Below are positions 3,499-19,890 of a stretch of 20,489 nt of DNA, piece by piece; within the stretch, counting starts at the first letter, position 1, and the number at the start of each line of letters is the position of its first letter. The notes beneath the pieces were generated by a model. That model was not told where the DNA came from and did no database searches. It saw only the letters and a program-made list of their open reading frames with translations. Source of the stretch: a virus; IMG/VR virus record IMGVR_UViG_3300048033_000063, positions 1-20,489 of that record; one strand, written 5' to 3'. The translations under genes were made by a program, and so were the position numbers.

Positions 3499-3682
3499 TT
3501 AAGTCTCCAAACTTATACTCTGTGAACTCGCCTTCAGCATCCTCTACAGCCTTAACGAACAACATCTGTAGCCCATACTCGAATATCTTTCTGTAGGATT
3601 CCTGTAGCATTTCTACCTCTACAGTAGCAGAACCATCTTCATGCTCTGTGATCTTGTTTATGTGGATCATGTCGTTACTCAT
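3491..3682 (-). CDS. Hypothetical phage protein, 63 aa
   Basis: I do not recognise this family. The protein is acidic, with a beta-like N-terminal half (HINKITEHEDGSATVEVEM) and a helix-like second half (RKIFEYGLQMLFVKAVEDAE). The start shares ATGA with the upstream stop, with a purine-rich GAGAG about seven bases before it, and the end overlaps the DUF1127 start by eight bases. This packing supports a real gene. No membrane segment or cysteine motif is visible. Confidence 0.7.
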   Translation of the reverse strand: MSNDMIHINKITEHEDGSATVEVEMLQESYRKIFEYGLQMLFVKAVEDAEGEFTEYKFGDLNE

Positions 3683-3810
3683 AGTCTACTCTCTCTGCTA
3701 CGTTCAAACTCTAAGGACTCCACTTCTGTAAAGCGTTCACAGTGTAGTTTATCGTATACGTACCAAAATTTAGTACCCTCATCATTAACTTCTACAGTAT
3801 ATTTAATCAT
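3679..3810 (-). CDS. Hypothetical small protein, start uncertain
   Basis: This is an unrecognised small protein with a beta-rich look (MIKYTVEVNDEGTKFWYVYD) and an acidic, arginine-bearing tail. Its stop shares ATGA with the next gene. Three in-frame starts exist. 3810 gives 43 residues, lies 13 bases past the mazG stop and has AGGTGA upstream, though at long spacing. 3840 gives 53 residues, and 3873 gives 64. The two longer readings run into mazG and have no clear ribosome site. The ATG at 3840 lies inside a copy of the CAGTGGAAAT repeat. I prefer 3810 with low certainty. Confidence 0.5.
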   Translation of the reverse strand: MIKYTVEVNDEGTKFWYVYDKLHCERFTEVESLEFERSRESRL

Positions 3811-3823
3811 CAGCACCGTATCT

Positions 3824-4189
3824 TCACCTGTTATCACCATTTCCACTGATGACCCCACGCTTCTTGCGGTCATACAGCTTTTCTAAGTTACGTGTTGCCA
3901 CTGTTGTCATGTCAACGTTCAAGTCACGACATAGTATAGCAATGTACCACAAGCAGTCACCTACTTCATCTGCGATTGCCTGACGATCAAACTTACCATC
4001 ACGCAAGATTTTCTTTACCTTGTTGGCTACCTCACCAGCTTCCGCAGCTAACCCAAGGGCAGGGTAGATTACTGCATGTTCAGCACCATAGATAGCTGTG
4101 CCTGACGCTTGTTTCTGGTAGTAGTTCATCGTAATGTCTAGGTCTTCGTTATAGTATTCAAACGCTTCGATATCTTCTTTACTAATCAA
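3824..4189 (-). CDS. mazG: MazG-like nucleotide pyrophosphohydrolase
   Basis: This 121-residue protein has the helical MazG signature, with E50-x2-E53 in GLAAEAGEVANKVKK and E75-x2-D78 in IADEVGDCLWYI. These residues bind magnesium and hydrolyse NTPs or (p)ppGpp-like alarmones to monophosphates. Phage MazG is usually discussed as a nucleotide-pool cleaner or modulator of host starvation signalling. The start at 4189 shares ATGA with the upstream stop and has AGAGG about ten bases before it. An internal ATG at residue 21 (MNYYQKQ) resembles common MazG starts and is the main alternative. Confidence 0.88.
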   Translation of the reverse strand: MISKEDIEAFEYYNEDLDITMNYYQKQASGTAIYGAEHAVIYPALGLAAEAGEVANKVKKILRDGKFDRQAIADEVGDCLWYIAILCRDLNVDMTTVATRNLEKLYDRKKRGVISGNGDNR

Positions 4190-6941: not shown

Positions 6942-7484
6942 TTATACTCCAGTCGCCCAAGTGTCTTCTAATTCAGGGGTTGTATACTCTGCTAACTCTA
7001 GCACCCCAATGTTCAATAACCGTACACCAGAGCCATTAGCATAAGTCTCAAACTGTACACGAGCCTTTGTACCATTCCCCAGTGACCCATCATCCTCAAA
7101 TGACCACCGCCGTTTATTCTCTAGACCATCACGCAGGTCCACGATGTTAGGGGCACCACCATAATCCTTTGAGAACTCCTTACCAAAACGGTCTGTAAAG
7201 GTCTTTACGTCTTGTACTAGCCGTTTCATCTTCATGTATTTCCCAATGCCCAGACTTTCATTACCTTCGATAATACGATCTGAGTTCATAGGTTTAGGGT
7301 TTAGACCCTCTTCGAGTAACTTCTCGATTTGAGCCTCGTCAGTGAAGTAAGCGTTTACGATAAACTGCCCACCTTTATCAGCGACAGCCTTTGCTACCCG
7401 ATTACCGTTTGGGTCTCCCATGTCTGCATTCTCAGGGAAGACTTTAGCCCATTCGAGTACCATTTCCATATCATAATTAGCCAT
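6942..7484 (-). CDS. Probable phage single-stranded DNA-binding protein
   Basis: This 180-residue protein appears rich in beta strands. It contains GGQFIVNAYFTDEAQIEKLL, a lysine-rich MKMKRLVQDV, and RVQFETYANGSGVRLLNIGVLEL near the end. It sits where T7-like phages keep gp2.5: beside the polymerase, exonuclease and endonuclease I. I therefore call it an OB-fold ssDNA-binding protein, mainly on context. Its C-terminus (ELEDTWATGV) is only mildly acidic and lacks the strong acidic tail with terminal phenylalanine of T7 gp2.5, which weakens the call. It is the first gene after the 7511-7547 promoter. AAAGGA lies about 11 bases before the ATG. Confidence 0.6.
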   Translation of the reverse strand: MANYDMEMVLEWAKVFPENADMGDPNGNRVAKAVADKGGQFIVNAYFTDEAQIEKLLEEGLNPKPMNSDRIIEGNESLGIGKYMKMKRLVQDVKTFTDRFGKEFSKDYGGAPNIVDLRDGLENKRRWSFEDDGSLGNGTKARVQFETYANGSGVRLLNIGVLELAEYTTPELEDTWATGV

Positions 7485-7510: not shown

Positions 7511-7547
7511 TATATACTATTAGGCACCTAATATTAGAAATTGTTCC
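7511..7547 (-). promoter_or_regulatory. Phage-type promoter B (GGAACA-N12-AGGTGCCTA)
   Basis: Read leftwards, GGAACA (7542-7547) is followed after exactly 12 bases by AGGTGCCTA (7521-7529) and then by ATAGTATATA (7511-7520). The same arrangement occurs upstream of the primase and of the terminase genes. If GGAACA is a -35 element, the -10 element falls in CCTAAT/TAATAG. The predicted RNA start would lie a few tens of bases before the ATG at 7484. The element occupies the only real gap between the polymerase and the next gene. A short palindrome, TACACTTTAGTGTA (7555-7568), overlaps the polymerase stop just upstream. Confidence 0.7.
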
Positions 7548-7561
7548 AAGTATTTTACACT

Positions 7562-9403
7562 TTAGTGTATTTCTGCATAAGTGTTGCCGAATTGCACATC
7601 TATGCCAAGTTCGACGTTTAGTTGTAGTTTATCATTAAGGTTTTGGATGGAAGTTTTCATCAGGTTTTCTGTTTTGTCTTGGTCTCCGTCCTTTACCAAC
7701 ACAATAACCTCGTCGTGAAACTGACCTATAGTCTCTAGGCCAAACTCACGACAATTACGAACCCAACTATCAAAGCAGAATACACCTGTACCTTGGTTTA
7801 GGGTACTAAAGCGATCCTTGTCTGACCGAAGGGAATACCAGAAGCCTGACACAGGGTTTTGTAACCACATAGAACCTCTGCGATCTATCACACGTAGGCC
7901 ATTAGCAACCTCCTGTACAGACCAGTTACGGTTCCAGAATGCATCCAGTAGCTTCTGTGCTTCACCTTTGTCCATACCTGTCTCACGAGCGAGTTTAGCG
8001 GCTCCTACGCCATACGTAGCACTATAGTTAACCACCTTGTAGTTCTTACGCAGTGCCTTGAGACTACGTTCACCTGAGTTGTGCTTGTCGATGTCATCTT
8101 GTGTGACAACACCTGCGTGTTTAGCAAGGTCAAGGTGTGGGTCAAAACCGTCCTTGGACATCTCTGCTACATAATCAGGGTCTAGTGGTTTCATGTAGTG
8201 ACGCTTTGTTGTGTCCTCTAATGAAGTCATATCCGCACCACATAAAGTGTAACCCTCTGGTGCTGTCAGACAGCCTCTTATTTCTGCTCCGTAGGGTTTA
8301 TCAACTGATGGCAAGTTGACCAATGGTCGGGCGTGACGAAAGCGGAGGGTGTTAGTGAACCCTGCAATAGTTGCTCGCACGTATCCATTGTTTTCTGACT
8401 CAACCATTGATTTAATGATGCCAATACGATGGGTAAGAACACTAAGGCCATCAAGAAGGCTAATAGCGGGTTCTCGTTCAGCCAGTTCGATAACGGATGG
8501 GCATAGTTCTGAGTCTCTTCGTACTTGCGCAATAGTCTTCTCCTCACCTGTAAGTTTGTTACGTGTGAACTTAAAGGTACGGGGTTCCCACCCCAAGCTG
8601 TTTAACCAAGACTTGACCTGATCGTTTGAATTAGGGTTGCCCTTATCACGACTGTGGACTACCTCGATTGAAGGTACGTCTGGGTGTTTACGGTATTCTG
8701 CACATAAGTCATACCACTTGTCAGCAGCTACAGTTGTCTCTCCGTTCTTCTTGTACATCTGAGCAGGACGATTGACTGTACGATACTTAACCACCTCTGG
8801 CATAGCTTCTGCAAGCTGTACGGTCTTCTCTTCCTTTAACTGTGTCCATTCGTCTAGGTGGGTCTTAGCTTTCTCTACGTCTAATTTCCACTGCAGGGCT
8901 TCCTGTTCACGAGCGCACTCCATCTTGAAGGTCAGGTAGTCAATCATGCGCCACATGTTTTCTTCCTTACCATAGATTTCTTTCATCTTAATCATCAGGT
9001 CACGATAGAGACGAGCGTTAATCTTAACGTCCTCATTACAACGGTGTGCATATTCCTCTGGGCTTAAGTTGTCCCAGTCTGCAATCTTAGGCTTTGGTAC
9101 ACCGTAATCCTCACCGAAACCCTCTAGACCATGCTTAAGTCTGTCGTGGTTTAGATACCAAGATAGAGCTAGAGTATCCACTAACTTTGCCTTAATCTTA
9201 ACCCCAAGCAGTTTCTCTACTGCAGGGATGTCAAAGCGGATGATATTGTGACCAACAAGAATGTCAGCTTCCTCAAAGAATATGCGCATAGCTACATAGT
9301 CGTGTGTATGCTGTACTTCACCGTTGTTATCCATCCATGAAAGGACATGGACTTTGGTCATCTCATCTAAAAGACCATCGGTCTCAATGTCGAATATACT
9401 CAT
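7562..9403 (-). CDS. Family A DNA polymerase, T7 gp5-like
   Basis: This 613-residue polymerase has an N-terminal 3'-5' exonuclease domain: Exo I FDIETDG (D5, E7), Exo II GHNIIRFD (D58), and Exo III near RCNEDV (D125). The polymerase domain has motif A GADMTSLEDTT (D391, E396), motif B with R452, K456 and Y460 spaced as in T7, and motif C FHDEV (H563 to E565). T7 polymerase is 704 residues, so this is a compact version. The arginine that normally follows the motif A glutamate (ELR) is absent; the sequence reads EDT. AAGGAG lies eight to nine bases before the start. The gene directly follows the PAPS-reductase-like gene. Confidence 0.95.
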   Translation of the reverse strand: MSIFDIETDGLLDEMTKVHVLSWMDNNGEVQHTHDYVAMRIFFEEADILVGHNIIRFDIPAVEKLLGVKIKAKLVDTLALSWYLNHDRLKHGLEGFGEDYGVPKPKIADWDNLSPEEYAHRCNEDVKINARLYRDLMIKMKEIYGKEENMWRMIDYLTFKMECAREQEALQWKLDVEKAKTHLDEWTQLKEEKTVQLAEAMPEVVKYRTVNRPAQMYKKNGETTVAADKWYDLCAEYRKHPDVPSIEVVHSRDKGNPNSNDQVKSWLNSLGWEPRTFKFTRNKLTGEEKTIAQVRRDSELCPSVIELAEREPAISLLDGLSVLTHRIGIIKSMVESENNGYVRATIAGFTNTLRFRHARPLVNLPSVDKPYGAEIRGCLTAPEGYTLCGADMTSLEDTTKRHYMKPLDPDYVAEMSKDGFDPHLDLAKHAGVVTQDDIDKHNSGERSLKALRKNYKVVNYSATYGVGAAKLARETGMDKGEAQKLLDAFWNRNWSVQEVANGLRVIDRRGSMWLQNPVSGFWYSLRSDKDRFSTLNQGTGVFCFDSWVRNCREFGLETIGQFHDEVIVLVKDGDQDKTENLMKTSIQNLNDKLQLNVELGIDVQFGNTYAEIH

Positions 9404-10168
9404 CTACTTATTCTCCTTCCATGCACCCTCTTCACAAAAGAGACCACAATCTACATCATAGCTTTTCATCGGGTGACCCTTGGCGTTAGGGTCTAGCTCA
9501 CTTAGTTTTAAGCGTTTGCTTTTAACTACAACGAGCTTTGCGCCAATCTTTTCTGACTGCTCTAGCCTACGTTGGAATACGTCAGGGTAATTAACACGTA
9601 ACCAGTTCCAGTAAGTAGGGGAACCCACCTTAACACAACCTAGGCAATTAGCGTTTGGTAGTCCGTTTAGGTAAAGCTCTGGTAACTTAAGACCTGCGTT
9701 ATTGATTACGTCAAAGCAGTCTTGTTTTGTGTAGCCCTCCTCAATTAGTGGGGTAAGTAAAGTCTCACGTTCTGTAAGACGAAAGCGGTCGGCCCTACCT
9801 TGTTCTTCTGCAGTAAAGCCTAAGACTGTCCAGTCTGGGTGGTTGTCACGTTCCCACCGTTGACGTGGTACTTTCTTTAATGCCCTTGTACAAGAGGCTC
9901 CTACTGGCCCTGACATGTAACGCTCATGCTCCCACACATCTTCACACGATTGTGCAGGGAACCTATGTGAGATAATATGCTCTATCTTTACATCAAGCCA
10001 CTTCTCAACATCTCGCAAGAATCTTTGGTTATCCTCTCCTTCCTCTACGATAGGGTTGTTAAGGATAGACACCTTGTTGTCCCTACCATACTTCTCTAAG
10101 GTCAGCTTTGCAGCAACTGCTGATGCAGCTCCACAAGAAAACCAAACTGCAATGTGTTTGCCTTGCAC
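9404..10168 (-). CDS. PAPS reductase-like PP-loop protein
   Basis: This 254-residue protein begins with an adenylate-binding PP-loop variant, SCGAASAVAAK (11-21). It contains cysteines in GASCTRA (C93), NCLGC (C175, C178) and DCGLFC (C241, C245). This resembles the phosphoadenosine-phosphosulfate reductase/ATP-sulfurylase-like superfamily, whose cysteines may hold an iron-sulfur cluster or pass sulfur. Sulfate reduction is unlikely to be its job between a primase and a polymerase; nucleotide or nucleic-acid thiolation or modification is a better guess but is unproven. The start codon is GTG, sharing TAGTG with the primase stop, with GGGAG about nine bases before it. No ATG start is available nearby. 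Confidence 0.78.
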   Translation of the reverse strand: MQGKHIAVWFSCGAASAVAAKLTLEKYGRDNKVSILNNPIVEEGEDNQRFLRDVEKWLDVKIEHIISHRFPAQSCEDVWEHERYMSGPVGASCTRALKKVPRQRWERDNHPDWTVLGFTAEEQGRADRFRLTERETLLTPLIEEGYTKQDCFDVINNAGLKLPELYLNGLPNANCLGCVKVGSPTYWNWLRVNYPDVFQRRLEQSEKIGAKLVVVKSKRLKLSELDPNAKGHPMKSYDVDCGLFCEEGAWKENK

Positions 10169-11772
10169 TACACAATCTCCCGTAATGTAAACGTGTCATA
10201 GTTAAACTTCATCTTACCTGCCTGTCCCTCTTGTGAACATGGGCGGTTTTTCTCTACCTTGATGTAGGTAGTATTCTTTTCTTCGACCGTATCAGCTTCC
10301 TTGTCACGATTGAGGTCAATAATAACTGACGCACGTTGACCAATCATCTTACAGTACTTTGGGTCACCGTTCTCATTGGTGTGAGCAATAGTGACAATAC
10401 CTACGTTAAGGTCTGCCGCCATCTTTGACAGGCGGACCGATAGGTCAGCTAACTGCTGCTCTTTGCTTTCTTCTGTACTACCAGTAACTACATCTTGGAT
10501 AGGCTCAAAGAACACAAACTTACAATCGCAAGCCTGACTAAAGAACCTGATCTGATCACACAGTTCATCAGCACCCTGACCGTCTTCCAAGAAGAACTGA
10601 TACAGGTTACCATCCTTGGTTAAGTCTTCGATAGCCTTAGTAACAATACCCTCTGCCATTTTCTCTTGGATAAGATCACGGCGTGTAAGGTTATCGTTAG
10701 CTTGGTACGACACAAGACCTAGGATTGAGCGTAACTTAGTTTCCTCCAAGTGCCACGTAGCAACAGGTACACCCTGCTTAAGCATCTGGAACTCTAAGAA
10801 GCGCATGATCTCTGTTTTACCAATACCTGTAGGTGCTTTGATAACAGTAAAGTGACCTTGCATAAGTCCAAGTATCTTAGCGTCCAGTTCGTTAATTCCT
10901 GTGGGGACGTACTGGAACTCAGGTGTGTCATTGTACAACTGCAGAAACTGATCTGTGGTATTCAATACGTTATCAGGGGTGTACTTCTTAGAGTTGTACC
11001 AAGCACTCTTGAACTCTGACTGAGCCTTATTTGTCAGGAAGTCGTTAGCGTCCTTGTACTTGCCATGTGGTACACGGTAGACCTTGTTAGGGAATAGCTT
11101 GGCAACCTTGTCTGCGATAGCATTACCAGCCTCGTCATTATCAAACGACAAAACAAGTTTATCAAAGCTGTCGAGGTAGTCCTTACAGTTCTCCCAAATT
11201 GCCTTGGCAGGGGTGGCACTCGGTAGTGAGACCACAGGATAGATACGATCTGTGCTTAGGTCGTTTATCATCTGATATACAGACAATGCATCTAGCTCGC
11301 CCTCAGTGATCGTAAGAACCTTAGAACAACCTGCAGTAAACTTGTCCATACCAAAGAACTCGTCTGTCTTAAAGCCCCTAGTAGTACGGAAGTCCTTCTC
11401 CTTTAGGTTACGCATCTTACGACCACCAGAAGGATATTCGTAAGTCTGGTAGGACTTGTCAGATGTCGTGGTGACATCGTACTTTTCCATTGTACGGACT
11501 GACAGACCACGCATAGCCACATATTTACCTGAAGGGCTATCGTCACTAATTTCCACTGAAGGGGTGCTAGGTGCATCTTCTACAGAGGGTAACGACTGAC
11601 CGTCTGCTAGTGGGTATTGCTCTTGTGACCAACTAAATACAGTCTTCTTAGACGGGTAGCTCTCACCACAAGAGAAGCACTTACCAAAGCCTCTTGTGTT
11701 ATAACTGAAAGCATCAGACGAACCACAGTCCACATAAGGACAAGGTTGTTTTGTGATATTACTATGGGGCAT
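10168..11772 (-). CDS. Bifunctional primase-helicase, T7 gp4-like
   Basis: This 534-residue protein combines three parts. A zinc-binding module has C11, C16, C32 and C35. A TOPRIM primase domain has TEGELDAL (E157) and SFDNDEAG (D211, D213). A RecA-type helicase has Walker A APTGIGKT (313-320), HLEE (about 341-344) and a Walker B-like strand FVFFEPIQD with E423 where aspartate is usual, then TIAHTNE (H464). It unwinds the fork and lays primers for the T7-like polymerase. The linker after the zinc module (about 60-80) is proline/serine-rich and contains a copy of the CAGTGGAAAT repeat. AAGGAG lies six bases before the ATG. Confidence 0.95.
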   Translation of the reverse strand: MPHSNITKQPCPYVDCGSSDAFSYNTRGFGKCFSCGESYPSKKTVFSWSQEQYPLADGQSLPSVEDAPSTPSVEISDDSPSGKYVAMRGLSVRTMEKYDVTTTSDKSYQTYEYPSGGRKMRNLKEKDFRTTRGFKTDEFFGMDKFTAGCSKVLTITEGELDALSVYQMINDLSTDRIYPVVSLPSATPAKAIWENCKDYLDSFDKLVLSFDNDEAGNAIADKVAKLFPNKVYRVPHGKYKDANDFLTNKAQSEFKSAWYNSKKYTPDNVLNTTDQFLQLYNDTPEFQYVPTGINELDAKILGLMQGHFTVIKAPTGIGKTEIMRFLEFQMLKQGVPVATWHLEETKLRSILGLVSYQANDNLTRRDLIQEKMAEGIVTKAIEDLTKDGNLYQFFLEDGQGADELCDQIRFFSQACDCKFVFFEPIQDVVTGSTEESKEQQLADLSVRLSKMAADLNVGIVTIAHTNENGDPKYCKMIGQRASVIIDLNRDKEADTVEEKNTTYIKVEKNRPCSQEGQAGKMKFNYDTFTLREIV

Positions 11773-11821
11773 ATAGACTCCTTCTAATTAGTGGTGGACC
11801 TTAACCATAGACTTTTCGGAA

Positions 11822-11866
11822 GAGGAACAAAAGTATATAGGCACCTTAATGACCCTTTTGTTCCTC
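11822..11866. repeat. 12-bp perfect inverted repeat around promoter A
   Basis: GAGGAACAAAAG (11822-11833) and CTTTTGTTCCTC (11855-11866) are perfect inverted copies separated by 21 bases. The right arm contains the GGAACA element of the leftward promoter and the left arm lies near its expected RNA start. It could be an operator, an RNA hairpin after the sigma gene, or both. It is not a standard terminator: the loop is long and no T run follows. Confidence 0.8.
11833..11864 (-). promoter_or_regulatory. Phage-type promoter A (GGAACA-N12-AGGTGCCTATATAC)
   Basis: Read leftwards, GGAACA (11859-11864) is followed after exactly 12 bases by AGGTGCC (11840-11846) and TATATAC (11833-11839). This matches the element upstream of the ssDNA-binding protein and terminase genes. 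It lies in the 112-base gap between the sigma-factor stop and the primase start, so it would drive primase-helicase, the PP-loop protein and DNA polymerase. Confidence 0.72.
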
Positions 11867-11884
11867 AGCAAAAGCAAAATAAAG

Positions 11885-12493
11885 TTAGTGTTGTATAGTT
11901 GCAACAATAGACCTTACTTTATCCAACAGTTTAGCTTGACGCTTAACTACAGCCGAGTGAGTCTTAAGACCAAAGAACTCTGCAACCTCACTGTCAGTCA
12001 TACCTTCTTCATACCGCATGTATAAGAGTATCTGCTCATCTGAAGTCAACTCACTATCTAACAGGGTGTCTAGGACTTCCCAGAACTCTCGGTTGATATA
12101 AAGCTCCTCTGATGAGGGTTCTGACTTACTGGTGTCACCCTCTACCTGCTCTGCCTTTAGGACACTCCTGAGATGCTCTACAGCAACGTCTGTCCATGTG
12201 TGCTGTACATTCTTGAGGTTGGCATCAGCATCTCTTACAAGCCGCCTGACAACATCTGACTTAGGGACTGTAAATGGTAAACAGTCAATGTTGAGATAGT
12301 CGTGCATACGCTTACGTGCTGCTCTAAATAGCTTTACGTCCTGCGCTGTAGGTTCGTCCGCAAGTATCTCATATATTGCCATGAGACCCTCCTGACGTAA
12401 GTCTTCGTAGTGATCTGGACGTTTAAACCTACGTGCAAGGTACTCGCACATCTTGATGAAGTGTTTAGCTTGTTCTTGTTTATCTATGACCAT
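11885..12493 (-). CDS. Small sigma70-family RNA polymerase sigma factor
   Basis: This 202-residue protein has a sigma region 2 signature, HYEDLRQEGLMAIYEIL (about 28-44). A variable middle follows, with LPFTVPKSDVVRRLV at about 72-86. A C-terminal region 4 helix-turn-helix runs from about 149 to 195 (LTSDEQILLYMRYEEGMTDSEVAEFFGLKTHSAVVKRQ, of which 165-187 form the likely helix-turn-helix). The two-domain size resembles ECF-type sigma factors, which commonly recognise a GGAAC -35 element. The three GGAACA-N12-AGGTGCCTA elements in this window are natural candidate targets, one of them right after this gene. It overlaps the upstream gene by 14 bases and has AGG six bases before its start. Confidence 0.82.
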   Translation of the reverse strand: MVIDKQEQAKHFIKMCEYLARRFKRPDHYEDLRQEGLMAIYEILADEPTAQDVKLFRAARKRMHDYLNIDCLPFTVPKSDVVRRLVRDADANLKNVQHTWTDVAVEHLRSVLKAEQVEGDTSKSEPSSEELYINREFWEVLDTLLDSELTSDEQILLYMRYEEGMTDSEVAEFFGLKTHSAVVKRQAKLLDKVRSIVATIQH

Positions 12494-12722
12494 TCTTGGC
12501 CTGCCTTTCTAAAGCTCGTTTACGTTCTAAGTCTGACATTGGTCTAATTTCCATTGCGGGGTAGTCAACGACAATACCAGTGTTCCACCTGTCCTGTTCC
12601 AACCTAGCCCCTTCGATGCTATCAAACAGCTTGGGTTCAGGGTGATTAGGGAAGCCAAATGTATTCTCTGGGACGTACATCCACTCCCCGTCAACGTCTA
12701 TCATTACTGCAAACTTAGTCAT
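12480..12722 (-). CDS. Hypothetical phage protein, 80 aa
   Basis: I recognise no named family. The protein starts with beta-like KFAVMIDVDGEWMYVP, continues through KLFDSIEGARLEQDRWNTG, and ends in a basic helix (DLERKRALERQAKNGHR). This layout looks like a small folded domain with a possible nucleic-acid-binding tail. It overlaps the thyX stop by eight bases and the sigma-factor start by 14 bases, so it is co-translated with both. Confidence 0.75.
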   Translation of the reverse strand: MTKFAVMIDVDGEWMYVPENTFGFPNHPEPKLFDSIEGARLEQDRWNTGIVVDYPAMEIRPMSDLERKRALERQAKNGHR

Positions 12723-13362
12723 ATATTAAAGCACTCCAACTTACAGGAAATTCATTTTCCATTACTACGTCAATTTCGGTTGCTACCAACCGTGTTTCAT
12801 ACTGAGTATCATGCGCACAACGTAATTTACACATGTCAGCAAAGGCGTCTAGTGAACCTGACCAAACCCAACTGGTCATCATGTTCTGTGGTAAGATGGC
12901 TCTGGCCTGTTCAGGGGCGACACCTTCTTTAATCATCAGGTCATATGTCGTTAATGCATTACGAATGGTCGCATGGTATAACATCTCTGCGTCCAGACTA
13001 ATTTCCATCGGACCCCCTGAACCTTGCTTAGAATTTTCAGGTTTACTACGCCAATCGGGTTCATAGAACCTTGGGGTTTCGTTGATATAACGACGACTCA
13101 CTTCGTTCCAACGTAGGAACTTATGCTTGACCAACTGACGGGCAACAAACACAGGTGCTGCCACACGAAATGAAGCAAAAGCATGACCAAAGGGTGACGT
13201 ATGCTTATGCTTTGCCAAGTACTGAATGAGCTTTTCGTCTCTTGCTGATAGTTCACCATCAACCCAATCTGAGGTCTTGTCGTAGCTCACACGGGCGGCA
13301 TTTACTACTGACAGGTCTGAACCCATAGTCTCTATTAGTTGTACAGTAATATCTAGTACCAT
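12715..13362 (-). CDS. thyX: Flavin-dependent thymidylate synthase
   Basis: This 215-residue protein has ThyX features: HTSPFGHAFASFRVAAPVFVARQ (about 54-76), and then KHKFLRWNEVSRRY (79-92). The usual ThyX signature is RHRxxSxNExSxRY. Here both arginines are lysines and the first serine is arginine, while N86, E87, S89, R91 and Y92 are kept. The C-terminal half contains PEQARAILPQNMMTSWVWSG, typical of the family. It makes dTMP from dUMP using FAD and methylene-tetrahydrofolate. It starts at a TAATG junction with a 54-residue upstream gene. Confidence 0.92.
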   Translation of the reverse strand: MVLDITVQLIETMGSDLSVVNAARVSYDKTSDWVDGELSARDEKLIQYLAKHKHTSPFGHAFASFRVAAPVFVARQLVKHKFLRWNEVSRRYINETPRFYEPDWRSKPENSKQGSGGPMEISLDAEMLYHATIRNALTTYDLMIKEGVAPEQARAILPQNMMTSWVWSGSLDAFADMCKLRCAHDTQYETRLVATEIDVVMENEFPVSWSALIYD

Positions 13363-13526
13363 TAGAATAACATCTCTCCATTTTCATCGTAGGGGCTACG
13401 ATAATAACCTAGTTTCATACATTCACTACGAGGGTCTATGACTTCCTCTAGCTCCTGTAATTTCGTCGGGGGAAGTACACCTAGTTCAAGTAGGCTACTT
13501 TCCAAGTGGGGCGGTATAGAATACAT
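13362..13526 (-). CDS. Hypothetical small protein, 54 aa
   Basis: An open frame of 54 codons fills the gap between sleB and thyX. It starts at an ATG (13524-13526) inside the end of sleB with GAAGGA about ten bases upstream, and it ends with TAA sharing TAATG with thyX. The product starts MYSIPPHLESSLLELG, has an acidic helix (LQELEEVIDP) and ends RSPYDENGEMLF. The coupling at both ends and the exact filling of the gap argue that it is real. I do not recognise the family. Confidence 0.65.
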   Translation of the reverse strand: MYSIPPHLESSLLELGVLPPTKLQELEEVIDPRSECMKLGYYRSPYDENGEMLF

Positions 13527-13890
13527 GATCGCCAATCCTTCCGTCTTGTTTGTAGTGCTTTGCCCATAAGGGGCGCACAGAGAGTGCGTGATAGTGTGTA
13601 GAGGTCATTTCGGTATACCCCTCTATGAAAACCTGATAGGCTACCTCACGGGCTGTTACAGCGGCTCTCCAGTCATCTAGGTTATCTGTGTATGCATCTA
13701 TACGATCTGACTTTCCATCATGGGTGAACGAGAATTGTTTGTCATCGAACACGACACCACAGATTGTATTAGGCCATCGACTATCGACCACACGGTTCAT
13801 TACTACCTCTGCCACGGCGAATTGCCCTTCGATAGGTTGGTCACGGGCCTCAAAGAAGACCGCAACCGCCAAGCATTCTAGACCAATCAT
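13495..13890 (-). CDS. SleB-type cell wall hydrolase (candidate endolysin)
   Basis: This 131-residue protein matches the SleB/CwlJ hydrolase domain. It has LAVAVFFEARDQPIEGQFAVAEVVMNRV (E14 is the likely catalytic glutamate), SRWPNTICGVVF, QFSFTHDG and ALSVRPLWA. Phages of alphaproteobacteria often use this domain as an endolysin. No signal peptide is evident, so release would need a holin or spanin that is not identified here. The gene is in the leftward block with thyX and the sigma factor rather than in the late structural block, which is unusual. The start shares TAATG with the upstream gene. Confidence 0.88.
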   Translation of the reverse strand: MIGLECLAVAVFFEARDQPIEGQFAVAEVVMNRVVDSRWPNTICGVVFDDKQFSFTHDGKSDRIDAYTDNLDDWRAAVTAREVAYQVFIEGYTEMTSTHYHALSVRPLWAKHYKQDGRIGDHVFYTAPLGK

Positions 13891-14084
13891 TACTCTTCAT
13901 CTCCATAGTCATCATTGTCAGAACAATGGCCATATGGAGACTCCTGTAGACCTTCCATGTAAGCCGACATCTGCTCTTTGTTGAAGCCTGACAGATCGCT
14001 GCTGCGACCATAGTAGGCATCCTTAGCACCCTTCTCGAATGCTTCTTCCATCTGATCCATAAACAAGTCCTTCATACGTGCCAT
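13890..14084 (-). CDS. Hypothetical acidic protein, 64 aa
   Basis: This unrecognised protein has an amphipathic helix at the N-terminus (RMKDLFMDQMEEAFEKGAKDA). YYGRSSDLSGFNKEQ and a strongly acidic tail (NDDYGDEE) follow. GGAGG lies about ten bases before the ATG, formed by the last codons of the peptidase gene, and the start shares TAATG with the peptidase stop. It also shares TAATG with sleB downstream. Confidence 0.72.
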   Translation of the reverse strand: MARMKDLFMDQMEEAFEKGAKDAYYGRSSDLSGFNKEQMSAYMEGLQESPYGHCSDNDDYGDEE

Positions 14085-14974
14085 TAGTAAGTTCCTCCAT
14101 TGTAATAATCATAATCGCGAATGTCATCAATCGCCTCACACAAGTCACTATATGAGAATCCCATGCTTGTCAACAGTGCTGCAACACTTTTTGGATAGTT
14201 AACCACAAGCGACTCAATGTCGTCGTCTTCGTAGTTGATGTCAGCGTCTACAGGTCTACGACTGATGACAAGGTTAGACATGTCTGCACAGATGAATGCG
14301 TCTGCTACACGCTCTAAGAACACAAGGTCTTGTTGCTCGCGTTTGGTGTGCTGATCGAAGTAACCAACAGAAACATTGGTACACTCTGGGATAAGGTGTG
14401 CGTACTCGTTGCTGTCGGTGTAAGAGCCAGTGTTGTCTGGTGTGTAGCCAAGGTCAACAGCACGTTCTAGCGAGCGAGCAAAGTCATCTGAACATGTGCG
14501 TGAACCCATCTGGTGGGTAATGACAGAGCCATAGCCCTTGCGGTCAAATGAGATAGCAGCGTCAATACCATGCACAACGTCTGGTGTATGCGTGACGATA
14601 TGGCTAGAGCCTTTGCAACCGATCTCTTCTGCAGCGTGTACGATGTACAGACCCTCTACACCTGCGTCGATCATACGTAGCATGATGTAGATACCCGCAG
14701 TACAGTCAGCACCTAGACAATCGTCACCAGAGGTAGCAGCAAACTCGTTGCGAACTACGACTTTCTGACGACCAGACTGAGAGTGTACAGTGTCATGGTG
14801 AGACATGTAGGCAATGCGTGGGTTGTCACCGATGCGTAGGATGTAGTTACCCTTGGCATCTGGCTTACCGAACACAGGCTCTAGGTAGCGGCGACAGAAC
14901 TTAAGCTGAGCGCGCGCGCCTTCTGGTCGCCTGTAAGAAAGCATGTCGATAAAAGTGTTAGTGGTGTAAGTCAT
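14084..14974 (-). CDS. Zinc metallopeptidase, M20/M28/M42-like
   Basis: This 296-residue protein has the metal-ligand order of co-catalytic zinc exopeptidases. HHDTVH (59-64) supplies the H-x-D pair, DDCLGADCTAGIYIML supplies D90, HAAEEIGCKGSSH supplies the E116/E117 pair, and SFDRKG supplies D144. A histidine in GYFDQHTKRE follows later. The pattern is that of aminopeptidases and deacylases of the M20, M28 or M42 families; the exact family and substrate are not clear. AGGAG seven bases before the ATG at 14974, plus the sigma70-type promoter just upstream, fix this start over the longer frame from 15049. A peptidase early in a phage programme could modify host proteins or peptides. Confidence 0.82.
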   Translation of the reverse strand: MTYTTNTFIDMLSYRRPEGARAQLKFCRRYLEPVFGKPDAKGNYILRIGDNPRIAYMSHHDTVHSQSGRQKVVVRNEFAATSGDDCLGADCTAGIYIMLRMIDAGVEGLYIVHAAEEIGCKGSSHIVTHTPDVVHGIDAAISFDRKGYGSVITHQMGSRTCSDDFARSLERAVDLGYTPDNTGSYTDSNEYAHLIPECTNVSVGYFDQHTKREQQDLVFLERVADAFICADMSNLVISRRPVDADINYEDDDIESLVVNYPKSVAALLTSMGFSYSDLCEAIDDIRDYDYYNGGTY

Positions 14975-14996
14975 ATAATCTCCTGTAATTTTCTCT

Positions 14997-15025
14997 TGTA
15001 TACATATTTCCAATAGAGGGGTCAA
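14997..15025 (-). promoter_or_regulatory. Sigma70-type promoter before the peptidase
   Basis: Read leftwards, TTGACC (15020-15025) and TATACA (14997-15002) are separated by exactly 17 bases, close to the sigma70 consensus. The spacer carries a diverged copy of the CAGTGGAAAT repeat (TTGGAAATATG). The ATG at 14974 follows about 23 bases after the -10 element. It would drive the peptidase, wall hydrolase, thyX and the phage sigma factor with host polymerase. Confidence 0.7.
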
Positions 15026-15030
15026 CCCGA

Positions 15031-15231
15031 CTAATAGATAAAGTTCCACAGCTCTTCATGTACAAAAGCTGAATTGTCGTTCATCAGGTCAAGCTCCTGT
15101 TCTGTAGCAGGACGACCCTTGTAAGTTGCGCTTGATATGTAAGCGTCACAATAGTCTGGGTAGTCTGCATGACACACGTCCTCGAACTCAATGTCCGTAA
15201 CCTGATGAAAGTCTATCGTTTTAATTTCCAC
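15031..15231 (-). CDS. Hypothetical phage protein, 66 aa, GTG start
   Basis: This is an acidic protein with FHQVTDIEFEDVCHADYPDYCDAYIS, GRPATEQELDLMND and FVHEELW. Such a pattern of small phage proteins looks familiar to me, but I cannot name the family. A GTG at 15231 is preceded by AAGGAG with nine bases between, which makes it the best start. The frame stays open further back to 15309, with an ATG at 15297, but that stretch reads through repeat copies and lacks a ribosome site. The start codon lies inside a copy of the CAGTGGAAAT repeat. It is the first gene of the leftward array. Confidence 0.65.
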   Translation of the reverse strand: MEIKTIDFHQVTDIEFEDVCHADYPDYCDAYISSATYKGRPATEQELDLMNDNSAFVHEELWNFIY

Positions 15232-15350
15232 TGTAGGGGTCTCCTTAAATTTTTTCAGGTTGTACCATATTTCCACTGCGGGGGTCAACCCTTGCATCCT
15301 TATTTCCACTGGTGGGGCGCATCCATATTTCCACTGGTGGGGGGGTCGAG
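15223..15350 (-). repeat. Cluster of four CAGTGGAAAT repeats
   Basis: On the minus strand, four copies of a motif resembling ACCCC-nn-CAGTGGAAATA begin near 15244, 15287, 15317 and 15347. Each is a C-rich run followed by CAGTGGAAAT. A fifth, diverged copy lies at 15004-15025 within a promoter spacer. The copy at 15268-15287 also carries TTGACCCC, the same -35-like start as the promoter copy, but no good -10 follows. The arrangement suggests operators, but an RNA-level role is possible because all copies face one way. Confidence 0.75.
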
Positions 15351-15393
15351 TAGCTCACATTCGATTTTTTGCAAGCGTTTTTTGGAATGTAAC

Positions 15394-15560
15394 TATAGGT
15401 TGCATGCTGCACCGCAGAATACACTTCACGCATAGGTTGTGCGAAAAACTTTTGCTCACTCTCTCATAGGTTGTAAGAATAGAACGAGTCTAATACTACC
15501 ATAGGTTGAAAATCCTTGGTTCGCGTTTGAATTGTGTTCGCATAGGTCATGCAACCTATA
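15394..15560 (+). repeat. ATAGGTTG repeats, iteron- or operator-like
   Basis: The nonamer (C/T)ATAGGTTG starts at 15394, 15431, 15465 and 15500, with a variant CATAGGTCA at 15541, giving spacings of 37, 34, 35 and 41 bases. The last one pairs with an inverted copy at 15551-15560 to form ATAGGT-N6-ACCTAT. The units are too short, and the intervening sequence too unrelated to spacers, for a CRISPR. They lie between divergent operons and could bind a regulator or a replication initiator. Confidence 0.75.
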
Positions 15561-15651
15561 CGAGAAAATTTCTACAGGACAACTTAAAGGTGTGTCCGTT
15601 CAATGGTTTTACACTATAGGAAAAGATAGTTCAACCATTAAACCATCTCTT

Positions 15652-15680
15652 TTCTGGTGCGGTTTTTTGGCCTATATAAT
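15652..15680 (+). promoter_or_regulatory. Rightward sigma70-type promoter
   Basis: A perfect -10 hexamer TATAAT (15675-15680) lies 17 bases after a weak -35 candidate, TTCTGG (15652-15657). The start of RNA would fall near 15687, just before the GGAGG of the 22-residue peptide. It is the obvious driver of the peptide and the 507-residue protein. The weak -35 suggests activator dependence or a short-lived early promoter. Confidence 0.6.
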
Positions 15681-15706
15681 GTGTATCAACTTTATGGAGG
15701 ATTCAC

Positions 15707-15775
15707 ATGTTGGTATTTTTTGGAATGTTCTTTGTCGCGGTTGCGATTGTCACAATCTTAATTGAAGGAATTTGA
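15707..15775 (+). CDS. 22-residue hydrophobic membrane peptide
   Basis: A 22-codon frame starts at ATG 15707 with GGAGG (15696-15700) six bases upstream, a strong ribosome site, and ends in TGA at 15773-15775. The product is nearly all hydrophobic (starting MLVFFGMFFVAVAIV and ending ILIEGI), enough for one membrane helix. It follows the TATAAT promoter directly, and its end supplies the AAGGA ribosome site for the next gene, which starts four bases after its stop codon. It may be a functional small membrane protein or a leader peptide that couples translation. No family is recognised. Confidence 0.6.
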   Translation: MLVFFGMFFVAVAIVTILIEGI

Positions 15776-15779
15776 ACCA

Positions 15780-17303
15780 ATGGAAAACAACGTATCTAAA
15801 ACTACCCAAACATATATTGATTTTACCACCGGCATTGTCACATGCCCTAGTGTGTGTGAATGGTCAATTCTACATGGGAAAATCGAACGGGTGTTAATGT
15901 TAGCAAATCCAGACATAGCGCATCACATGGACGGTCTGGTGCGATACATTCAACCCACGTTTGATGGTAAACTATTGAGTGTGTATGCAAACGCGGATGA
16001 CCTAGCGCGCGGCAAACGTACCATAGGCAAACCCGCGAAATTGATACGCAAGTTTTGTGATAAGCCAAACGCGGATGATCTAGAGTCTTTTGCAATCTGG
16101 TTTAACGATGTTGCATTGGCTAATGATGGTTTGACCGTCAAAACATGCACCAAACCAGAAACATTCGCGCGTATCTACAAAGCGGATGTTCAAAAGGGAA
16201 CTGATGCGCGTTTGGGTAGTGACCGCAAGAGTCTTTCATCATCGTGCATGCGTTATGAATTTAATCACCTACCGCACCATCCTGCATGGATTTATGGTAG
16301 TGGCGATTTCACGCTTGCATGGGTTGAAAATGCAGCGGGTAAAGTTTGCGCGCGTGTGGTCATCTGCACCCGCACATCAACTAAAACGGGTCTAACATGT
16401 TTTGTGCGCGCGCCTATTTATACAAATTCAAACGCTGCGGCGGATATGTTGGAGGCATGGTGCGATGATCAGAAAGCCCTAGTAAGCGATCAAGAAAAGC
16501 GAACATGGGTGAACGCGCGACTCTTGCGTGTGGAGGTGAACGATGGGTTCCTAGCGCCATATTTTGATCGCGACTCTAGCGTAAAAGATACGGGGGAATA
16601 TCTGGTGGTATCTCGCGCGGGTGAAATTGATCTAGCATCAACACATGGCACCGTGAACACTTACGAGAACACATGTAATTCTTGCGGGTGTGGCGTTGAT
16701 GAATATGACGCTTATTACCACGAAAATCATGACGGCGCATGGTGCGGTCAGTGTTTTAGCGATGAATTTACATTATGCGAATGTTGCCATGAATATGAAC
16801 CACATGATCAAATCAATAATGTTGATGGTGATTCCGTGTGTGACCACTGCGTTGAACATTCGGGAAATTACGCTTACACAATCGCGGATGAATGGCACAA
16901 TCTAGACAACGTGATTTTTGACGTTGATGGTGATGCACATGGGATTAACGATGACACATGGTTTGAGTCTGATGTTGATGGTGAAATATACCACGTTGAT
17001 AATGAGGCCAACTTGCCCACATGGTTTCCCGATCGGATGACCGTTGAACAAGCAATGGAGTCTGGGCATTGGAACCGCAAGCACATCACCCGTATTGAGT
17101 GGCGTCAACGTAGGTTTGGCGCGTTCCGTTTACCGCGTTCAACTTGGCGCTCTGACCCGTCAATGGTAGGGGAAGGGACACACGTCAAAACACATGAAAT
17201 TGTGTGGGTGTTAAAAGACCACCTTGAATGGGACGGGTGTGAGATAGCCGACAATCAACTAGACTTATTTGATGACGGTAAATTCTTTACTATCGCGCTA
17301 TAG
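15780..17303 (+). CDS. Unknown 507-residue protein with four CxxC zinc-finger-like pairs
   Basis: I do not recognise this protein. Residues 1-290 form a mixed domain with no clear motif. Residues 299-357 carry four C-x2-C pairs (C299/C302, C322/C325, C333/C336, C354/C357), a spacing that suggests two zinc sites of RING or LIM style. An acidic stretch with repeated DVDGD/DVDGE follows (about 375-410), then a basic, tryptophan-rich segment and an acidic end. The ATG at 15780 has AAGGA ten bases upstream; an in-frame TTG at 15762 is less likely. The gene is richer in GCG/CGC codons than its neighbours and has its own promoter and terminator, so it may be an acquired cargo gene or a host-takeover protein. 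Confidence 0.85.
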   Translation: MENNVSKTTQTYIDFTTGIVTCPSVCEWSILHGKIERVLMLANPDIAHHMDGLVRYIQPTFDGKLLSVYANADDLARGKRTIGKPAKLIRKFCDKPNADDLESFAIWFNDVALANDGLTVKTCTKPETFARIYKADVQKGTDARLGSDRKSLSSSCMRYEFNHLPHHPAWIYGSGDFTLAWVENAAGKVCARVVICTRTSTKTGLTCFVRAPIYTNSNAAADMLEAWCDDQKALVSDQEKRTWVNARLLRVEVNDGFLAPYFDRDSSVKDTGEYLVVSRAGEIDLASTHGTVNTYENTCNSCGCGVDEYDAYYHENHDGAWCGQCFSDEFTLCECCHEYEPHDQINNVDGDSVCDHCVEHSGNYAYTIADEWHNLDNVIFDVDGDAHGINDDTWFESDVDGEIYHVDNEANLPTWFPDRMTVEQAMESGHWNRKHITRIEWRQRRFGAFRLPRSTWRSDPSMVGEGTHVKTHEIVWVLKDHLEWDGCEIADNQLDLFDDGKFFTIAL

Positions 17304-17329
17304 CATCACCCACCATTGCAAACGATTAG

Positions 17330-17351
17330 ACCCACCTAGTGTGGGTTTTTT
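17330..17351 (+). terminator. Intrinsic terminator after the 507-residue gene
   Basis: ACCCAC (17330-17335) and GTGGGT (17341-17346) form a perfect 6-bp stem around a 5-base loop, followed immediately by a run of T (17346-17351). It lies 27 bases past the stop and closes the small rightward unit. Confidence 0.8.
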
Positions 17352-17382
17352 CTTGTTTGGTCATCACCTGTAGAAATTCCGC

Positions 17383-17393
17383 ATAGGTTGCAT
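17383..17393 (+). repeat. Isolated ATAGGTTGCAT copy
   Basis: The 11 bases ATAGGTTGCAT are identical to 15395-15405 on the other side of the rightward unit, so the unit of about 2 kb is bracketed by the same repeat. An inverted partner CACCTAT lies about 20 bases further right. Confidence 0.65.
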
Positions 17394-17934
17394 TAACACC
17401 CGTAACACACCTATAAGGGGAAATCGTCAGGTAATGGGGTTTTAGCATGTGGCGGGTGTGGTAGTGACCAAAGTTTTTACCCCTACTGCGTGGCGCTTAT
17501 ATTGAGTGTGCGGGCACATCTGGTTTTCTAGTGTTGTCAATCGGTTGTGGTGTGGTTTGCTATTGCGAATCATTTGCAAGTGGGGTGTGTGTTATCTTGT
17601 GTGGGCCTGCCGATTCGCCCGCCGTGTCAAGCAAAAATGTTTGTCAAGTGTTATTTTTATGTATTACTGTTGTATTTTTGTCACAGTATGACTAGAGCTA
17701 TACCAAAGTATACAAGAGCTATACCAAAGTATATCCAATGGGACCCTTAGTATTATACAGCTATACTTTAGGGTAGTGGTGTATACCCCCATATCTACAA
17801 CATAAGAAAATTAGTTAGGGCTTCTTACGAAGGGGTAGGTGTGACAACCTGTCGCATTGACGAGTGTCATCTATACCTGAGTGTGACATTTATGCAACAA
17901 TATTAGCACACACAAAAAAAATTTACATTAGTCA
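17394..17934. other. Long non-coding stretch before the late promoter
   Basis: I see no convincing gene here. Short open frames exist (for example 17506-17691) but they have no ribosome site and odd, cysteine/tryptophan-rich products. The first half is rich in G and T on the plus strand. The second half is AT-rich with several TATACC/GGTATA sites and the 21-base tandem repeat. No tRNA fold is apparent. A position between a terminator and the terminase genes would suit a packaging start or replication site, but no such signal can be identified by eye. Confidence 0.5.
17694..17733 (+). repeat. Tandem 21-base repeat
   Basis: AGAGCTATACCAAAGTATA occurs at 17694-17712 and again at 17715-17733, a period of 21 bases, or two helix turns. 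A partial inverted copy (CTATACTTTAGG) lies at 17761-17772. The repeat lies about 200 bases before promoter C and looks like a protein-binding array. It can also be read as two TRAIPKY heptads from an ATG at 17689, but that frame has no ribosome site. Confidence 0.75.
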
Positions 17935-17966
17935 GGAACATTATCCGTTTTTAGGTGCCTATATAC
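17935..17966 (+). promoter_or_regulatory. Phage-type promoter C before the terminase operon
   Basis: GGAACA (17935-17940), exactly 12 bases, then AGGTGCC (17953-17959) and TATATAC (17960-17966). This matches promoters A and B but faces rightwards. It would start a leader of about 190 bases ahead of the small terminase gene. Confidence 0.72.
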
Positions 17967-18066
17967 ATATAGAACACTTTAGTCCAGTCCCCTGTATAGG
18001 ACCACTACCTAATATAGTATAAGTATACCCTTAAGTATTAGTCTTGGGTATACACATCAGATACCC

Positions 18067-18136
18067 TCCCCCTATCAACCACAGTAAACCTAGCCACATA
18101 TCATGCGTAGACGTAACTGTGCCGATGGTAGGGGGA
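18067..18136. repeat. 11-bp inverted repeat before the small terminase gene
   Basis: TCCCCCTATCA (18067-18077) pairs with TGGTAGGGGGA (18126-18136), with ten Watson-Crick pairs and one G-T pair in RNA, around a 48-base loop. It lies in the presumed leader of the late operon and close to the terminase start. It may be an RNA structure affecting expression or part of a packaging recognition site. Confidence 0.6.
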
Positions 18137-18161
18137 AGTGGTTTTATCAGTAAGAGAACCC

Positions 18162-18560
18162 ATGCACAAAGAACCTTTGCCATATAGTGAAGTGATTGCT
18201 AAGAATGTCCGTAAGGGCATCCGCAATGGTGTGGCTATTAAAGATATCCTAGCATCTATCCAGAAGTATCAGAACGCACCTAGTTCATCAGCTACATTCT
18301 ATAAGTTGTATGGTGGTGATATTGCTGAAGAGCGATCAGAGATTGTAGGGCAGATTGGTTCTGTAGTTATCCAACAGGCTATGGACGGTGACTTTAAGTC
18401 TCAGGAGCTATACTTACGCTCTAAGGGTGGTTGGTCGCCAACACAGACAAATATTGAGGTAGAAGCTGATAGCAACCCTGACGAAGATACATCTGCTATT
18501 GACTCCCTTATGACATTACTCGGCAAGAACAATGCAACCACAAGCGAAGATAACGGCTGA
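18162..18560 (+). CDS. terS: Small terminase subunit
   Basis: This 132-residue protein lies directly before the large terminase, with a 29-base overlap. The N-terminal half (VIAKNVRKGIRNGVAIKDILASIQKY) looks like a helix-turn-helix DNA-binding domain. The middle has SEIVGQIGSVVIQQAMDGDFKSQELYLRSKGGW, typical of small terminases, and the tail is acidic. It would recognise the packaging site and recruit the large subunit. The ATG at 18162 has AAGAGA upstream. A GTG at 18138 would add eight residues, but its G-rich site is too close. Confidence 0.8.
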   Translation: MHKEPLPYSEVIAKNVRKGIRNGVAIKDILASIQKYQNAPSSSATFYKLYGGDIAEERSEIVGQIGSVVIQQAMDGDFKSQELYLRSKGGWSPTQTNIEVEADSNPDEDTSAIDSLMTLLGKNNATTSEDNG

Positions 18561-19890
18561 TGTACTCAGAGGGCTACCTGACGAAGAGGTAGCTAAGTTA
18601 CTATCTGAGATTGGCCCTAAGAAAGCTGAAGAGCTTAGACATGACTGGGGCTTTTGGGCTAGACCTGAGCAACTAGAGCCTGATGGTGGATGGAACACTT
18701 GGGTAGCACTCGCTGGTCGTGGTTGGGGTAAGACTAGAGCAGGTGCTGAATGGGTAAGACACAGGATACGGTCGGGAGATAAGATTGTTCATTGTGTGGC
18801 TCCTACAAAAGGCGATGTACGCCGTGTTATGGTTGAGGGTGACAGTGGACTACTTAATGTATGTTGGTCGGGAGATACTACTTACCGTGGCAAACATATT
18901 GGTTTCCCTGTATGGTCCCCCACGAACAATAGTCTCACATGGGAGAATGGTGCAAAAGCAGTCTTCTTCTCAGCCGAAGACCCAGAACGACTAAGGGGCC
19001 CACAGGCGTATAGTGCATGGTGTGACGAGCTTTGTGCTTGGCGTAATGCACAAGACACTTGGGACATGATGATGTTTGGTCTACGTCTCGGTAAGCACCC
19101 TAAAGTATTTGTTACGACTACCCCTAAGACAACCAAGCTGATAAGAACGATACTAGACGATGAAAAGACGGTTGTCTCCAAGGGTAGCACTTATGACAAC
19201 GCTTCTAATCTTGCTGACACTTTTCTCGATGCAGTCAGGAAAACCTATGAAGGCACCCGTCTTGGTCGCCAAGAACTATATGCCGAAATACTTGACGAAG
19301 CATCGGGTGCTTTATGGAACAGAACTCTCTTAGCGAAGTGTGAAATTGAGAAAGACGAAGTTCCTAATCTTAGTCGGATTGTCGTGTCTATTGACCCTGC
19401 TATTACATCTAACGCAGAATCTGACATGACTGGTATTGTGGTTGCAGGTGTAGACCAAGAAGGTATTGCCTACGTCCTAGAAGACCACACAGGAAGATAT
19501 ACCCCGCAACAATGGGCAGCTAAGGCGGTAGAACTCTACCACGATCATATGGCTGATAGAGTTGTAGCGGAAAGAAACCAAGGTGGTGATATGGTTCGCC
19601 ACACACTACACACAGAAGACGAAAACCTACCAGTTAAGCTGGTTCATGCGTCAAGGGGCAAGATGGCACGAGCCGAACCTGTCTCTGCTTTATACGAACA
19701 GAATAAAGTAAAGCATGTACGTGGGTTGAATGATTTAGAAGATCAGATGGTACAGTGGGAACCTTTAGGGTCGATAGGCTCACCAGACCGTCTTGATGCA
19801 CTTGTATGGGCTTTAACCGACCTCTCACTCAACGGATACGCCAAGCCGCAACTAAAGTTGGCATACAGTTCTGCTAAAGGTTTAATGTAA
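18532..19890 (+). CDS. terL: Large terminase subunit, GTA/Terminase_6-like
   Basis: This 452-residue protein has the packaging ATPase motifs: Walker A AGRGWGKT (61-68), Walker B SAWCDE (D165, E166) and the coupling motif VTTTPK (194-199). The C-terminal RNase H-like nuclease has VVSIDPAI (D288), VVAERNQGG (E347) and SPDRLDALVWAL (D419, D422). The overall pattern resembles the large terminase of siphophages and of the Rhodobacter gene transfer agent rather than T7 gp19. It cuts concatemeric DNA and pumps it into the prohead. It overlaps terS by 29 bases and is followed by the portal gene after one base. Confidence 0.95.
   Translation: MQPQAKITADVLRGLPDEEVAKLLSEIGPKKAEELRHDWGFWARPEQLEPDGGWNTWVALAGRGWGKTRAGAEWVRHRIRSGDKIVHCVAPTKGDVRRVMVEGDSGLLNVCWSGDTTYRGKHIGFPVWSPTNNSLTWENGAKAVFFSAEDPERLRGPQAYSAWCDELCAWRNAQDTWDMMMFGLRLGKHPKVFVTTTPKTTKLIRTILDDEKTVVSKGSTYDNASNLADTFLDAVRKTYEGTRLGRQELYAEILDEASGALWNRTLLAKCEIEKDEVPNLSRIVVSIDPAITSNAESDMTGIVVAGVDQEGIAYVLEDHTGRYTPQQWAAKAVELYHDHMADRVVAERNQGGDMVRHTLHTEDENLPVKLVHASRGKMARAEPVSALYEQNKVKHVRGLNDLEDQMVQWEPLGSIGSPDRLDALVWALTDLSLNGYAKPQLKLAYSSAKGLM

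Follow-up and report, generated by a model that had tools for sequence, protein, structure and literature searches.

Bipartite promoter-like sites that vary in step with a predicted phage sigma factor in CRP-6-type marine phages

The IMG/VR virus record IMGVR_UViG_3300048033_000063, whose whole length of 20489 bases is here called the window, contains three copies of the bipartite motif GGAACA-N12-AGGTGCCTA and encodes a small sigma factor directly upstream of one of them. The three sites are very probably the cognate promoters of this phage sigma factor and would be read by the host core polymerase carrying it, the -35 half by the sigma4 domain and the -10 half by the sigma2 domain, in a system of modular turnover. 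The sites, their exclusivity, their concordance within each genome and the modular covariation of sigma factor and promoters among relatives were observed directly.

Three bipartite sites and a sigma factor gene

A first-pass annotation of the window had described three matching bipartite sites, each in an intergenic gap and facing an operon. All three proved to be exact copies, they were the only ones in the whole window, and their placement before operons was borne out in each case:

Site A, 11838..11864, minus strand: exact match, before the primase-helicase/polymerase operon
Site B, 7521..7547, minus strand: exact match, between the polymerase gene and a 180-amino-acid gene followed by nuclease/RNR/PhoH genes
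Site C, 17935..17961, plus strand: exact match, before the terminase/structural operon

The 3′ end of site A (11838) lies 66 nucleotides ahead of the primase-helicase start at 11772, that of site B (7521) 37 nucleotides ahead of the start of the 180-amino-acid gene at 7484, and that of site C (17961) 177 nucleotides ahead of the small terminase start at 18138. The constant part runs on into an AT tract, TATATAC or TAATAGTATATAC. As had been noted in the first reading, the 12-base spacers are unlike each other (ATTTCTAATATT, AAAGGGTCATTA and TTATCCGTTTTT). By allowing up to three mismatches the same three sites alone were recovered, the fourth-best match in the window having four mismatches, and dinucleotide shuffles gave 0.45 ± 0.69 sites with 2 of 100 reaching three. 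This chance estimate is secondary since the motif pattern was picked after being seen, and the strong evidence is that of the comparative analysis.

Directly upstream of site A is the following gene:

11885..12493, minus strand: phage sigma factor of 202 amino acids with sigma2 and sigma4 domains

The proposal that this gene encodes a small two-domain factor of the sigma70 family is supported for both domains by profile and structural matches. The Pfam matches were weak and below the cut-offs (region 4, E = 9e-5; region 2, E = 0.06), and the protein matched a PHROG sigma factor family. Its AlphaFold2 model, with a predicted local distance difference test (pLDDT) of 86, matched the sigma2 domain of SigE (2.6 Å over 69 residues) and the sigma4 domain of SigL (2.3 Å over 78 residues), and also E. 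coli sigmaE. The sigma4 recognition helix begins at T178 (THSAVVKR), and the putative -10-reading segment lies around V76-P77.

The closest named relative of the window is Roseobacter phage CRP-6 (host FZCC0042; polymerase 64%, TerL 83% identity), in which the homologue of the sigma factor is gp14, in the equivalent position and with 25% identity. In CRP-6 (L084 in our set) gp14, at 3586-4101, is annotated as a hypothetical protein; it is the orthologous sigma factor, and the public annotation may be corrected. A text search of two papers on this phage group in the open-licence literature (PMC6918029, PMC8528129) found no mention of a sigma factor or of promoters.

Concerted change of sites and sigma modules among relatives

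The equivalent three gaps of the relatives share one architecture with many different sequences, and the copies match within each genome. No site with the literal motif of the window was found in the gaps of CRP-6. The motif of CRP-6 itself, GTTGACT-N13-GACGTCATA, was found by comparing its own gaps and occurs in exactly three copies in 44.9 kb, one ahead of the primase, one following the polymerase and one ahead of TerS; these sites begin at 4093, 8032 and 42211 of MK613348. The scan of related phages proposed in the first-pass annotation, when run with the own motif of each genome, returned exactly three exact copies before operons in CRP-6 and in five contigs, at the equivalent three places (G001, G004, G005 and G006 of 38-47 kb, and the partial G007). 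The absence of any other copy, first judged by eye, thus holds for the window and for the near-complete relatives with their own motifs. In G008 two exact copies and one with 2 mismatches were detected, and the partial G009 contained two. Site A is kept in L004 and L006-L009 and site B, with a single change (AGGTGTCTA), in L004, L006 and L008, and in the relatives having site C its equivalent matches sites A and B of the same genome.

Many of the relatives are short metagenome contigs, and the registers were in part set by eye. The sigma family was reached through the polymerase gene and not with the sigma factor as query; as the sole query the latter gave no match among named phages and one among viral contigs. 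The alignment of the diverse sigma factors was too variable for searching bacterial genomes, and the family profile gave no match to the sigma genes adjoining the polymerase in PA11/T2S2 (Zobellviridae).

Concordance was assessed in an all-against-all test, which replaced a register-by-best-match comparison judged to be partly circular. The A and B gaps of the same genome shared 23.35 of 31 bases versus 19.08 when permuted (p<5e-5), and this excess persisted within clades of at least 0.95 polymerase identity. For site C, agreement within genomes was 23.9 and that between them 19.4 (n = 10, p<5e-5). When mapped onto the polymerase tree (46 phages), the -35 class requires at least 25 changes, and so does the helix class. 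The -35 element spans about 14 classes among close relatives, the GGAAC of the window being one of these.

The two promoter halves were then set against the two sigma domains in 97 pairs with polymerases at least 85% identical. Where the helix differed and the sigma2/2.4-3.0 segment was the same (n = 12 pairs), the -35 distance was 0.54 and the core distance 0.00. Conversely, pairs with the same helix and different sigma2/2.4-3.0 segments (n = 31) displayed a -35 distance of 0.06 and a core distance of 0.31. Partial Mantel tests related the -35 element to the helix given polymerase and region 2 (r = 0.216, p = 0.0002), with r = -0.15 for -35 versus region 2 given polymerase and helix; the core was related to region 2 given polymerase and helix (r = 0.183, p = 0.0008) and gave r = 0.005 (p = 0.46) versus the helix given polymerase and region 2.

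The sigma genes are mosaic at the DNA level, with cassette-like breaks. In CRP-6 and in L106-like phages the sigma gene ends in codons that also form the -35 element of site A, GTT GAC TAA in CRP-6 (4093-4101) and CTT GCA in L106, so that in such genomes exchange of a sigma4 cassette would carry the nearest promoter half along, and sites B and C would follow separately. Site B, several kb off, differs mostly in the matching half within near-identical flanks, which is clear in the pairs L059/L063, L106/L112 and L117/L124. L042, L046, L052 and L099 share sigma2 and differ in sigma4, and L117 and L124 share sigma4 and differ in sigma2. Turnover, joint change, the tracking of the sigma4 helix by the -35 element and that of the sigma2 segment by the -10 side together lend strong support, at the level of sequence, to the earlier proposal that the phage sigma factor may read the three sites.

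Rules linking helix to -35 element were fixed on a first set of loci (for example SKQ: TTGAC; SRQ: TTGC; NKMW: GTTAC; NQVW: GTATAA; xQKW: GTCTAA) and then tried on 119 loci fetched later, in which they covered 32 non-redundant sigma factors, a further 23 having helices outside the rules. The predicted -35 element was present in 31 of 32 A gaps and 27 of 28 B gaps, any given other class being present in 7.7% and 2.6%, respectively; some of these loci closely resemble ones used for training, so the prediction is not fully independent. The single miss, L239, carries GTTGAC just beyond the spacing limit. When aligned by eye to SigW, sigma factors with K or R at the residue equivalent to K170 had C at -35 position 5/6 in 22 of 22 genomes, versus 1 of 13 with Q, the exception being L049, a genome with one discordant site (see below). 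In the SigW and SigE complexes the residue at this position contacts the G opposite C(-31) (PMC6713349), and the K/R-with-C pairing appears to fit these complexes as expected.

The argument in the first-pass annotation that sigma factors of the extracytoplasmic function (ECF) type often read a GGAAC -35 element did not hold up. This likeness is largely coincidental, the sigma factors of sister phages, all from this family, being paired with TTACAA, TATAAA, TCTAA, TTGAC, TTGCA and others.

Predicted transcription and alternative explanations

Transcription by means of the phage sigma factor would proceed as follows: On the host core, the sigma4 recognition helix would read the upstream half GGAACA (-35) and the sigma2/2.4-3.0 segment the downstream half AGGTGCCTA/TATA (-10 side), the spacing being fixed. 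The sigma gene ends a gene block without such a site, so the factor would probably be made first by host transcription, as the first-pass annotation proposed for the block from 15 to 11.9 kb; in that region a sigma70-like scan was uninformative and gave fewer matches than shuffles. Judged from the positions of the sites, the factor would then activate both replication/nucleotide operons along with the terminase/structural operon. Across the CRP-6-type phages sigma modules would have been swapped or mutated repeatedly, with the three promoters following half by half. From these patterns we infer promoter activity and its timing, and also a selective reason for the turnover. For the latter, the hypothesis we favour is that turnover in specificity averts crosstalk with relatives during co-infection. 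Repeated exchange of sigma2 and sigma4, with three promoters rewritten in step, might render coexisting relatives mutually deaf (orthogonal) in replication and late transcription, driven by competition during co-infection or by interference from host or prophage; we give this proposal even chances. A search with PF00940 for single-subunit RNA polymerases gave no match in the window, CRP-6 and four contigs, the search's own controls being also unmatched, and none is listed in the CRP-6 annotation.

Several observations weigh against recognition of the sites by the phage sigma factor. The genome pairs in the distance comparison are mutually non-independent. Four of 46 genomes were discordant at one site (L049 and L061 at site B, L012 and L062 in the core), and these may be intermediates, cases of tolerance or chimaeric contigs. 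No second terminase-side contig was found to carry a GGAACA-type site C like that of the window. The TTGAC-type classes resemble the host sigma70 -35 element and could be readable by the host polymerase. Finally, the spacers displayed a slight within-genome excess (5.0 versus about 4.0-4.7 of 10).

This small excess leaves room for a minor role of local copying. Copying of DNA blocks (gene conversion) among the three gaps, with no common reader, could on its own terms also account for the concordance, and in L112 the spacers of A and B are identical. However, the 12 bases upstream of the sites showed no within-genome excess, single halves change within otherwise identical flanks, the three spacers of the window differ, and copying alone would leave the link to sigma residues unexplained. 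As the sole source of the concordance it is largely refuted and very improbable.

A reading of the sites as ordinary sigma70 promoters of the host (TTGACA-N16-18-TATAAT), varying with its preferences, is equally improbable. A spacing near 17 results when the -10 element is placed in the TATA tract, and TTGACT-N17-TCATAC of CRP-6 looks sigma70-like. Against this, GGAACA, GTATAAA, GTCTAA, GCATAAA and CTTGCA are not sigma70 -35 elements, and host preference predicts neither joint switching at polymerase identities of at least 95% nor the tracking of the sigma helix. The sigma70-like scan, which ran over 11700-18140, did not include sites A and C among its matches; site B is outside the stretch scanned and has the same GGAACA.

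The sites might instead be operators for a separate phage DNA-binding protein, a repressor or activator acting at host-read promoters, to which the sigma factor would be incidental. AGGTGCCT is quasi-palindromic, and site A is surrounded by the following element:

11822-11833 / 11855-11866: perfect 12-bp inverted repeat GAGGAACAAAAG...CTTTTGTTCCTC

This repeat is kept in L004 and L006-L009 and might serve to terminate the sigma block or as an additional control element, but sites B and C are without it. The two promoter halves follow different parts of the sigma factor, the -35 element its sigma4 helix and the downstream half its sigma2 segment, independently of each other and of polymerase relatedness, and the helix rules predict new -35 elements, which together make the operator explanation unlikely, if slightly less so than the two preceding ones.

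Phage group, neighbouring genes and known systems

By its sequence and the gene order common with CRP-6, the window is a member of the CRP-6 group of marine phages, which according to its authors is widespread across ocean viromes (PMC6918029). The genes behind the sites are:

10168..11772, minus strand: primase-helicase, first gene of the site A operon (Toprim and DnaB_C domains)
9404..10168, minus strand: 254-amino-acid protein between primase and polymerase (from the open reading frame list; Pfam scan without match)
7562..9403, minus strand: Family A DNA polymerase, last gene of the site A operon (DNA_pol_A)
6942..7484, minus strand: 180-amino-acid gene, first behind site B (from the open reading frame list; synteny with CRP-6)
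18138..18560, plus strand: small terminase subunit, first behind site C (precedes TerL; 73% identity to CRP-6 gp65 in the equivalent place)
18532..19890, plus strand: large terminase subunit (Terminase_6N/6C; 83% identical to CRP-6 TerL)

Behind the 180-amino-acid gene, as far as about 470, come genes for a nuclease, a MazG-like protein, RNR, glutaredoxin and PhoH.

Other repeats were also present in the window. Upstream of the early block, the divergent region holds four 24-nucleotide direct repeats ending in TTTCCACTG..GGGG (15216-15342). Elements of the form CATAGGTTG(CATGC) recur at 15385-15565 and about 17380, among them the perfect inverted pair TATAGGTTGCATG/CATGCAACCTATA, and are possible binding sites of a regulator in the early promoter region. 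A tandem 21-nucleotide repeat, ACTAGAGCTATACCAAAGTAT, followed by GGGACCCTTAGTATTATAC, lies at 17691-17757; CRP-6, L099 and L177 have a similar stretch ahead of their site C, and this region is perhaps a conserved host-type promoter.

The present analysis provides a previously unannotated sigma factor and a regulatory layout for a widespread and poorly understood group of marine phages. The specificity of sigma factors for promoters is usually probed by mutagenesis or between very distant ECF groups. Here, many closely related pairs found in nature are set apart by a single domain and by the corresponding half of each of three promoters. This amounts to a near-ideal natural experiment on how a master regulator and its dispersed targets change together, and to a source of sigma factors and promoters as candidate orthogonal pairs, with a testable -35 code. 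If relatives are indeed mutually deaf, nature has left a readable sigma-promoter code of lock-and-key diversification.

Phage sigma factors with bipartite promoters are already known; new here are the hypervariable, modular and concerted turnover and the natural -35 code. In Salmonella phage 7-11 the sigma factor SaPh711_gp47 reads late promoters of the form GTAAtg-(16)-aCTA, and its counterpart in phiEco32 is gp36; the two are about 15% identical and were acquired independently, and their promoters were proven experimentally (PMC8948821, PMC4331800). The authors of the phage 7-11 study foresaw more sigma-promoter pairs and hybrids (PMC8948821). As in these phages, a phage sigma factor is predicted here to reprogramme the host polymerase through low-copy bipartite promoters before late operons, and related phages share promoter positions but not sequences. 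As in phage 7-11, the shared bipartite motif was found only before phage operons (in the window, CRP-6, G001 and G004-G007) and covaries with the DNA-reading residues of the sigma factor. Unlike in phages 7-11 and phiEco32, one orthologous sigma family diversifies half by half among close relatives with exactly three sites per genome, a system known from its sequences.

The ECF sigma factors SigW and SigE likewise have two domains, with the recognition helix in the N-terminal half of the last helix (PMC6713349). ECF sequence profiles match the phage sigma factor weakly, and a conserved AAC in the -35 element is lacking in the phage family, whose members use GTTACAA, GTATAAA, GTCTAA, GTTGAC, CTTGC, GCATAA and others. 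Among T7-like phages, the single-subunit RNA polymerase and its promoter set diverge together between relatives. Such joint divergence of reader specificity and promoter set is also seen in the CRP-6 group, in which, unlike in T7-like phages, the predicted reader is a sigma factor with two separately exchangeable reading modules.

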